In this document: in pieces, positions 12,707-14,795 of the stretch | Layout of the letters: each line of letters begins with the position of its first letter | Position numbering within the stretch: the first letter of the stretch is position 1 | Source: Candidatus Woesearchaeota archaeon | GTDB taxonomy: Archaea; Nanobdellota; Nanobdellia; Woesearchaeales; JAFGLG01 | Length of the DNA: 64,000 nt | NCBI GenBank assembly: GCA_016928155.1 | Contig: JAFGLG010000004.1 | Span: forward strand, 1-64,000 | Direction of reading: 5' to 3' | Notes under the pieces: generated by a model | What the model saw: the letters and a program-made list of their open reading frames with translations, nothing else | Database searches by the model: none | Told to the model about the DNA's origin: nothing | Translations under genes and position numbers: made by a program

Positions 12707-12845
12707 TGGACCGGTCGGGACTTTCGCCAGCATCATTTTGGTGTTTTGGCATCCATCTGTTGCTGTTTCGAACCCGAGGCCCCTACCACTTTGGAGCTTT
12801 TCAGCCTTGCCAAGGTAATGCTCTACCAGGCTGAGCTACCGGCCC
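12707..12845 (-). tRNA. tRNA-Ala(GGC) with two introns
   Basis: Read on the minus strand, acceptor GGGCCGG (12845-12839) pairs with CCGGTCC (12714-12708), giving the G3-U70 wobble that marks tRNA-Ala; discriminator A at 12707. Intron 1 (12789-12807, 19 nt) is at 37/38 with a perfect bulge-helix-bulge: outer TACC/GGTA, helix TTGG/CCAA, bulges CAA and AGT, inner GGCT-gaaa-AGCT. Anticodon GGC is at 12811-12809. Intron 2 (12721-12766, 46 nt) is in the T-loop at 59/60: bulge AAA, hairpin CAGCA...TGCTG, one unpaired G, helix TTCG/CGAA, bulge AGT. Splicing restores TCGGG-TTCGAAT-CCCGA. Mature length 74. Confidence 0.93.
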
Positions 12846-12890
12846 AAGGATAATGACAAATGAAGGTCTTGGTTATTTTTTTTGCATTTT

Positions 12891-12975
12891 TGGGCCGGAC
12901 AATATAAAGTATGGGCTTGAGCAAAGCGAAACCCATGAAAGTGTCAACTGATTTCTCAGTTGGGCTACCGGCCCA
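12891..12975 (-). ncRNA. putative structured RNA, 85 nt, unknown
   Basis: On the minus strand an 8-bp closing stem TGGGCCGG/CCGGCCCA holds two hairpins: CAACTGA-GAAA-TCAGTTG (a GNRA tetraloop) and ATGGGTTT-(10 nt)-AAGCCCAT. The second stem has a G-U pair on this strand but an A-C mismatch on the plus strand, and GAAA would be TTTC, so the minus strand is the likely RNA. A TATA box at 13001-13011 lies about 30 bp upstream. Its first 11 bases equal the start of the neighbouring tRNA-Ala (GGGCCGGTAGC), but there is no T-arm or anticodon loop. It could be a tRNA-derived RNA or an unrelated sRNA. Confidence 0.5.
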
Positions 12976-13000: not shown

Positions 13001-13011
13001 TATTTATATTT
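13001..13011 (-). promoter_or_regulatory. TATA box upstream of the 85-nt RNA
   Basis: On the minus strand this reads AAATATAAATA, a strong archaeal TATA box. Its centre is about 31 bp before position 12975, the outer end of the folded element, which fits transcription start there and possible read-through into tRNA-Ala. Confidence 0.5.
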
Positions 13012-13094: not shown

Positions 13095-14795
13095 ATGGAT
13101 GATCTGGATATAAAGAAGGAGATCAGGAATTTTTCATTGCATAATGCTGTCAAGTTCAATGGCAAGGCCTCTTCTGGTGCAGTTATCGGAAGGTTGGTTG
13201 GCAAGCACCCTGACATTAAGGCCCGGCTCAATGAGTATGGCAGGATCATCTCAGACATAATAAAGGAAGTCAATGCCATGGATCCTGATGCGCAGATGAA
13301 GGAGCTGGAAGAGAATGCGCCTGAATTGCTTGAGGAGAAGAAGGAAGTGAAGAAGAAGGATCTTCCGGAACTGAAGCTGATTAAGGATGAGGTCGTCATG
13401 AGGTTTGAGCCTAGCCCGAGCGGTCCGCTCCACATCGGCCATCTCTATCCTCTCGCTTTGAATCTCGAATATGTCAGGAGATACAAGGGGATCTTCTATC
13501 TCAGGATAGCTGACACGAATGCCGACAATATCGACCCTGGATCCTACAGTCTTATCCCTGAGAATGCAGGATGGTTCGCGAAGAGGGAGATAAAGCCCGT
13601 GATCCAGTCTGACAGGATGGAGCTGTACTACAATTATGCGCTCAAGCTCATCGAGGAGGGCTACATGTATGTGTGCGGGTGCACAGCAGATGAGTTCAAG
13701 GAGCTCAAGGCGAAGAAGTCTGAATGCCCCTGCAGGAACCTGAAGGTCGGCGAGCAGGTGAAGAGATGGCACAGGATGTTCGACAGGGAGAAAGGATATC
13801 AGGAAGGCGAAGCTGTCGTCAGGTTCAAGACAGACATGAAGCATAAGAATCCTGCGATGCGTGATTTCCCGATGATTAGGATAAATGATTCTGAGCATGC
13901 GCGGCAGGGATCGAGGTATCGCGTATGGCCGCTCATGAACTTCTCCGTCGCTATAGACGACATGGACATGGCAGTCACCCACACACTGAGGGGCAAGGAC
14001 CATGCAGACAATGCGAAGAAGCAGGCCATGATACATCACGCCCTGGGATATCCGACGCCGTATGCGATCAGCGTCGGGAGGATAAATTTCCTGGGCTTCC
14101 CTGTATCATGCTCGCAGACGAAGGCCGGCATCAAGGAAGGCATGTACGAAGGCTGGGACGATGTCAGGATTCCGTTTGTCCCTGCACTGAAGAGGAGGGG
14201 TTACCGGCCTGAGGCTTTCATCAGGTATGCGCTTGATGTCGGTGTCAGCGCAAATGACAAGAGTGTCGACATCAAAGATTTCTTCAAGACAATAGACTGC
14301 TTCAACAAGGAGGTCCTTGATCCCGTCTCACAGAGGTTTTTCTTTGTCAGGGATCCTGTCGGTATCGATATCTCAGGTTCTCCTGATCAGGAAGTCGAGC
14401 TTGATCTTCATCCTGAGCACAGGAAAGGCGGCAGGAAGTTCATGACTTCCTCTTCATTCTGGGTTGAACAGCGGGATTTCGAGAAGTTCAGGGAAGGCAG
14501 CCTCTACCGCCTGATGGACTGCCTGAATTTCAGGAGGAGCGGGGATTCTTTCAGGTTCGTCTCTGCAGACTACCGTGATTTCAAGGACAACGGCGACATG
14601 ATCATCCATTGGCTTCCGCAGGATGAGACAGTTGATGTCGAGGTCCTCATGCCTGACAACACTGTGGCATCAGGTTTTGGTGAGAGAGGCATTGTTGGTC
14701 TTGATGTCGGTGACATCATCCAGTTCGAGAGATTCGGATTCTGCAGGCTTGAGAATGCCTCAGGCAAGTATTTTTTTGTCTTCTGCCACAGATAG
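13095..14795 (+). CDS. gltX: glutamyl-tRNA synthetase, archaeal type
   Basis: 566 aa class I synthetase charging tRNA-Glu (in archaea commonly non-discriminating, also charging tRNA-Gln). Seen: HIGH-type motif PSPSGPLHIGHLYPLAL near residue 110 after an archaeal helical N-terminal extension, RIADTNADNIDPGSY, LRGKDHADNAKKQAMI, and SQTKAGIKEG in the KMSKS-loop region, then the C-terminal beta barrels. The frame is open upstream to TTG 12960, but that part is Tyr/Cys-rich and crosses the structured element; ATG 13095 (MDDLDIKKEI) is taken. Its likely substrate tRNA-Glu lies at the window start. Confidence 0.95.
   Translation: MDDLDIKKEIRNFSLHNAVKFNGKASSGAVIGRLVGKHPDIKARLNEYGRIISDIIKEVNAMDPDAQMKELEENAPELLEEKKEVKKKDLPELKLIKDEVVMRFEPSPSGPLHIGHLYPLALNLEYVRRYKGIFYLRIADTNADNIDPGSYSLIPENAGWFAKREIKPVIQSDRMELYYNYALKLIEEGYMYVCGCTADEFKELKAKKSECPCRNLKVGEQVKRWHRMFDREKGYQEGEAVVRFKTDMKHKNPAMRDFPMIRINDSEHARQGSRYRVWPLMNFSVAIDDMDMAVTHTLRGKDHADNAKKQAMIHHALGYPTPYAISVGRINFLGFPVSCSQTKAGIKEGMYEGWDDVRIPFVPALKRRGYRPEAFIRYALDVGVSANDKSVDIKDFFKTIDCFNKEVLDPVSQRFFFVRDPVGIDISGSPDQEVELDLHPEHRKGGRKFMTSSSFWVEQRDFEKFREGSLYRLMDCLNFRRSGDSFRFVSADYRDFKDNGDMIIHWLPQDETVDVEVLMPDNTVASGFGERGIVGLDVGDIIQFERFGFCRLENASGKYFFVFCHR

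Follow-up and report, generated by a model that had tools for sequence, protein, structure and literature searches.

Archaea possess many disrupted tRNA genes. The palindromic elements of Rickettsia and the small dispersed repeats of cyanobacteria are tiny and mobile and can insert into genes, those for RNAs among them, but neither has a well-known enzyme. The RAYT-mobilised REP sequences and REPINs of bacteria are very small, dispersed and hairpin-forming, and their structure is kept by compensatory change (PMC3116915). Long direct repeats of variable length (8–514 bp) are associated with IS1634 and IS1549, and no mechanism for them had been proposed as of 2008 (PMC2266710). In Caldiarchaeum, an upstream tRNA fragment and the gain of an intron have been ascribed to an integrase element (PMC3293823).

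The window analysed here is a 64,000-nt stretch of DNA from a Candidatus Woesearchaeota archaeon, in which a tRNA-Ala(GGC) gene shows the same layout as the Caldiarchaeum locus, namely a truncated tRNA 5' end, an insert and an intact tRNA. The Caldiarchaeum insert is 1.8 kb long and carries a putative recombinase gene, whereas the element in the window belongs to a 52-bp type with many different targets. We conclude, at a probability of roughly 0.88, that positions 12910–12962 on the minus strand are a copy of an about 52-bp two-hairpin miniature mobile DNA inserted in the D-arm region of this tRNA gene. Similar to REPINs and REP sequences, the element is tiny, hairpin-forming, compensated and dispersed; unlike them, it is archaeal, targets tRNA genes and is flanked by long direct repeats. 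From the Rickettsia and cyanobacterial repeats it differs in its sequence, its host, its long target duplications and its two defined hairpins. We found no description of the two-hairpin family in Rfam or in the literature accessible to us, most subscription journals being outside reach.

Anatomy of the window copy and its target gene

An initial annotation had described the 85-nt segment 12975–12891 of the minus strand (TGGGCCGGTAGCCCAACTGAGAAATCAGTTGACACTTTCATGGGTTTCGCTTTGCTCAAGCCCATACTTTATATTGTCCGGCCCA) as a folded element, closed by a stem and preceded by a TATA box, that might be a new RNA gene upstream of tRNA-Ala. The features of the locus are as follows.

12910..12962, minus strand: core of the mobile two-hairpin element, 53 nt (covariance model R1)
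12945..12962, minus strand: hairpin A, CAACTGA-GAAA-TCAGTTG (sequence and fold; compensated pair variation in 28 copies)
12911..12936, minus strand: hairpin B, ATGGGTTTCGC-TTT-GCTCAAGCCCAT (exact core pattern in relatives)
12964..12975, minus strand: left direct-repeat copy TGGGCCGGTAGC, the duplicated 5' end of tRNA-Ala (12-bp exact repeat)
12835..12846, minus strand: right copy of the direct repeat, TGGGCCGGTAGC, where the intact tRNA-Ala begins (sequence)
12891..12898, minus strand: CCGGCCCA, 3' strand of the initially described closing stem, outside the conserved element (outer-stem comparison)
13001..13011, minus strand: TATA-like box AAATATAAATA, read as the original tRNA-Ala promoter (position and the insertion model)
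12707..12845, minus strand: two-intron tRNA-Ala(GGC), the target gene (ARAGORN after intron removal)
13095..14795, plus strand: divergent neighbour, glutamyl-tRNA synthetase gene (NCBIfam gltX_arch, E 2e-152)

The described fold was reproduced: on the minus strand, an 8-bp closing stem, a 7-bp GAAA hairpin and an 8-bp hairpin form at -32.7 kcal/mol (z = -4.3), and none of 200 shuffled sequences folded as well. The plus strand folds nearly as well (z = -4.0) and also beats all 200 shuffles, so the strand is not given by the fold alone. The proposal of a minus-strand RNA had been drawn from the GNRA loop and a G-U pair; the U-G pair of hairpin B is invariant among 28 aligned copies from the family. 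The TATA-like box lies about 25 nt ahead of the 5' end, and the first 12 nt of the segment recur at the start of tRNA-Ala, both much as had been stated. Neither ARAGORN nor Rfam reports a tRNA at 12891–12975, and a cloverleaf after intron removal is obtained only for the adjacent 12707–12845. The Rfam search proposed at that time (4,227 models, curated score) yielded no family matching the folded element, and inspection by eye revealed no box C/D, H/ACA, hammerhead or group II domain V match within it. Nothing typical of a guide RNA was found either.

Conservation among the relatives is limited to the inner 53 nt, which run from hairpin A through an 8-nt linker into hairpin B and score 69.5 bits (E 1.6e-13, covariance model R1, own genome), the second-best score among all copies scored. 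The outer stem TGGGCCGG/CCGGCCCA is absent from other copies, and outer stems around these are not enriched (mean 4.72 vs 4.57 bp in the control); in the window the stem may reflect chance (about 1% by the control) or a local feature. Its 5' strand comes from the target, being a second copy of the start of tRNA-Ala, and what resembled a tRNA-derived RNA owes its tRNA-like start to this duplication. The relation to the tRNA-Ala gene and the unusual conserved hairpins had been recognised correctly; the closing stem is not a feature of the family.

The left repeat stops 1 nt short of the core, an arrangement found around other copies as well. With a direct repeat of only 12 bp, whose two copies have promoter regions that can no longer be aligned, the insertion in the window looks old. 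A repeat of this length is weak by itself, and the reading of the window as an insertion thus rests on the family. Under the insertion model, the TATA box at 13001–13011 is probably the original promoter of tRNA-Ala.

The target gene has introns at about 12788–12807 in the anticodon loop and at about 12720–12765 in the T-loop, which is why it was missed by ARAGORN and at the Rfam cut-off; after their removal ARAGORN recognises a standard tRNA-Ala(ggc) with the G3:U70 identity pair. T-loop introns ending in about GAAAGT or GGAAGT before the 3' T-stem were also observed at L031 (719–870), L032, L033, L034 and L143, and seem common in tRNAs of the order, including the tRNA-Ala located between 16S and 23S rRNA.

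A dispersed family with compensated hairpins

A first search with 341 bp around the element in 60 genomes of the same order returned tRNA 5' halves and repeated matches to hairpin B only. The exact pattern of the hairpin B core matches about 87 places, which are spread over 50 of 288 same-order genomes, whereas the reversed control pattern had no match in any genome listed. The composite unit consists of hairpin A, which is variable in sequence, a linker of usually 7–11 nt and the hairpin B core GGGTTTCGC..GCTCAAGCCC, which is invariant among the pattern matches because the pattern required it. Covariance model R1 finds the element in 64 of 145 same-order genomes, including at least seven copies in the genome of the window; these copy numbers are underestimates, since the main-type model weakly scores a sub-family of that genome (L309, L310, L311), whose hairpin B differs from the main type (GTGGGACTT..AGTCCCAC or the like) and which is flanked by exact repeats of 22–36 bp. 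Most of the named records with the element are from Candidatus Woesearchaeota or Nanoarchaeota; a few come from Altiarchaeales and other archaea. Among viral contigs, none of six pattern matches was convincing, and the bacterial matches were set aside as chance occurrences, about 19 being expected in 257 Gb.

Hairpin A is present at the expected place in 60 of 97 matches as compared to 85 of 990 control positions. In an alignment of 28 copies, 97% of the pair cells hold standard pairs. Nine pairs are changed on both sides, including every pair of hairpin A, and covariation reaches 0.279 vs 0.095 in shuffled alignments, a value inflated by the choice of hairpin A members partly by their pairing, whereas the comparison with control positions is independent of this choice. 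The covariation check recommended in the initial annotation thus revealed compensatory changes in both hairpins. In hairpin A, structure is kept more than sequence.

Compensated hairpins, a stable fold and a well-placed TATA box would also be expected from a functional small RNA gene, that is, an 85-nt RNA with its own promoter and either a role in trans or that of a regulatory leader of the tRNA. We regard such a gene as very unlikely: the conserved part ends with the inner 53 nt, the 5' arm is target sequence, and Rfam holds no match. In addition, the copies occur in either orientation, in tRNA introns and at the ends of protein genes, and share no promoter. The inner 53 nt are thus a dispersed mobile element of many contexts rather than a stand-alone new RNA gene, and the early concern about a trivial repeat was half justified, as the element does match a dispersed repeat, though not a trivial one. 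The leader proposal may still hold incidentally, as the element separates the intact tRNA-Ala from what was probably its original promoter. For genome annotation, the element is a generator of false small-RNA candidates and tRNA fragments.

Target duplications, an empty site and tRNA genes as targets

Of 84 copies, 31 are flanked by exact direct repeats 14 bp or longer, as compared to 1 of 850 positions drawn at random from these loci. The repeats are target sequence and hence target duplications, which usually leave one copy of the gene whole; the exact ones span 12–74 bp with a median of about 20, and imperfect ones perhaps exceed 100 bp. In the clearest example (L296), perfect 74-bp repeats of the SRP54 gene 3' end enclose exactly 52 bp and the gene is intact on one side of the insertion, which defines the unit of the element as 52 bp. 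Other protein-gene insertions include one with a 46-bp repeat at the end of a 103-aa gene (L094) and two at gene starts, namely in an oxidoreductase-like gene with a 39-bp repeat (L146) and in the adenosylhomocysteinase-like gene of an Altiarchaeales record (L233). A further protein gene, in the genome of the window (C7:173626), has a repeat that is exact over 36 bp and imperfect over about 110 bp. An empty site is known from one locus with about 70% identical flanks, a histone-like gene where genome AR15 carries about 81 bp more than its congener G244; the element together with a single copy of the repeat accounts for the extra sequence.

The element mainly targets tRNA genes, where about two thirds of the copies lie. 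A tRNA-like sequence lies within 150 bp of 54 of 85 copies vs 23 of 850 control positions, 37 of these copies having the same orientation as the tRNA and 17 the opposite one. In the genome of the window, six of seven copies adjoin tRNA genes, of which three are tRNA-Ala, -Tyr and -Trp, with an expectation of about 1% per site. Across the family, the element is also found beside Tyr, Trp, Glu, Pro and Ser tRNAs, beside protein genes and inside tRNA introns. The preference could in part reflect the survival of harmless insertions. At repeat-flanked tRNA genes, the left repeat usually contains 11–23 nt of the tRNA end as judged by eye, which places the junction in the D-arm for same-strand copies or the T-arm for opposite-strand copies, and the tRNA is complete on the far side of the element. 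Some copies are located within otherwise intact tRNA genes at intron positions, specifically in tRNA-Gly (L091), tRNA-Pro (L087), L147 and the T-loop of L143. An element that occurs both at duplicated tRNA ends and at intron positions within tRNA genes, with clean insertions and an empty site, would supply a concrete, testable source of archaeal tRNA introns and fragments.

Two further explanations start from the tRNA sequence at the locus. A tandem duplicate of tRNA-Ala that lost its middle part and gained a repeat would account for the 5' tRNA sequence and for CCGGCCCA, which looks like a tRNA 3' acceptor strand. However, the inner 53 nt are not tRNA sequence and are common to copies at other tRNAs and at protein genes, and the insertions in SRP54 and other protein genes contradict such decay, which leaves this scenario hardly credible. 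Likewise, a remnant of site-specific attB/attP integration into the tRNA by an integrase-bearing plasmid or virus would present the same picture, in which a 5' piece of the tRNA, cut short, precedes a complete copy; this was proposed for Caldiarchaeum, and the study also ties such a fragment to intron gain (PMC3293823). Here, merely about 52 bp separate the repeats, one conserved unit recurs throughout, and the repeats differ from site to site and also derive from protein genes; we find an att remnant just as hard to credit.

Candidate driver enzymes and a proposed mode of movement

The element occupies many non-homologous sites, duplicates its target and has an empty site in a relative, and thus belongs to miniature mobile DNA in the broad sense. 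Similar to MITEs, it is non-autonomous, short and flanked by target duplications. In contrast to MITEs, its ends (CAACTG.../...GCCCAC) are not inverted copies of each other, so that terminal inverted repeats are absent, its duplications range from 12 to 74 bp or beyond rather than having one short, constant size, and no partner transposase was found. Since it fails the tested defining features of both MITEs and REPINs, we file it under neither. IS1634 and IS1549 offer a precedent for its long, variable direct repeats, but they are full insertion sequences with a DDE transposase and inverted ends, whereas profile searches detected no DDE_Tnp_1 (PF01609) in the genome of the window or in 9 of 13 other copy-bearing genomes.

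The same searches, which for transposases covered Y1 and DDE_Tnp_1, for polymerases covered RVT_1, and whose absences hold at profile-search sensitivity, found neither Y1_Tnp (PF01797) nor the reverse transcriptase domain RVT_1 (PF00078) in the genome of the window, AR15 and G134, with 7–8 copies each. Y1 transposase, reverse transcriptase and DDE_Tnp_1, all absent from the genome of the window, were accordingly rejected as drivers. Across 145 genomes, Y1 is not associated with the element (23 of 48 genomes, 21 expected, p = 0.59), nor is RVT_1 (12 of 36, 16 expected).

These distributions bear on two other routes of movement. A palindromic element of the REP/REPIN or IS200/IS605 type, moved in trans by a Y1 (HUH) transposase, would be consistent with short imperfect hairpins around an invariant core, and REPINs are themselves hairpin-forming miniature mobile DNA (PMC3116915). 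We judge this route decidedly unlikely given the lack of Y1_Tnp, and thus of any Y1/RAYT gene, in the three copy-rich genomes and the missing association. Long target duplications are, to our knowledge, not expected from Y1 chemistry. A SINE-like retroelement, in which a 52-nt RNA is reverse-transcribed into nicked targets, agrees with the variable duplication lengths, as in target-primed insertion, with the conservation of hairpin A structure above sequence, and with intron copies that would leave as RNA, but the distribution of RVT_1 speaks against it and makes it rather unlikely.

Since the searches revealed no enzyme that would drive the two-hairpin element and its ends lack terminal inverted repeats, its movement is deduced from comparative anatomy only. 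That an element of about 52 bp makes target duplications reaching 74 bp or beyond, in genomes lacking the usual transposases, calls for a mechanism that is not an established one. The target may be broken with a wide stagger, about 15–100 nt apart, and the element joined between the break ends while the overhangs are copied; such a break with copied overhangs would duplicate the target end and leave one gene copy intact. The hairpin pair would be recognised by its structure, as single-stranded DNA or RNA, by some enzyme. In the window, the truncated left tRNA copy would retain the old promoter, upstream of the intact tRNA-Ala, whose leader would contain the element until tRNA processing removes it. 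We tentatively raise the possibility, doubtful as it is at present, of a new mobile class: a 52-nt structured unit with no dedicated transposase or reverse transcriptase that uses host tRNA-processing or break-repair machinery, enters tRNA arms and loops with duplications sometimes longer than the unit itself, and seeds tRNA fragments and new introns in DPANN archaea.

Several loci depart from the simple unit. Adjacent element copies form arrays at L291, L292 and L293, with tRNA ends or repeated units interspersed. Two copies (L112 and L308) have extra sequence inside the hairpin A region, which may thus accept inserts. Finally, a roughly 300-bp dispersed repeat of genome G039 (L286, L287, L289) contains a hairpin-A-like stretch and may be a larger relative of the two-hairpin element.
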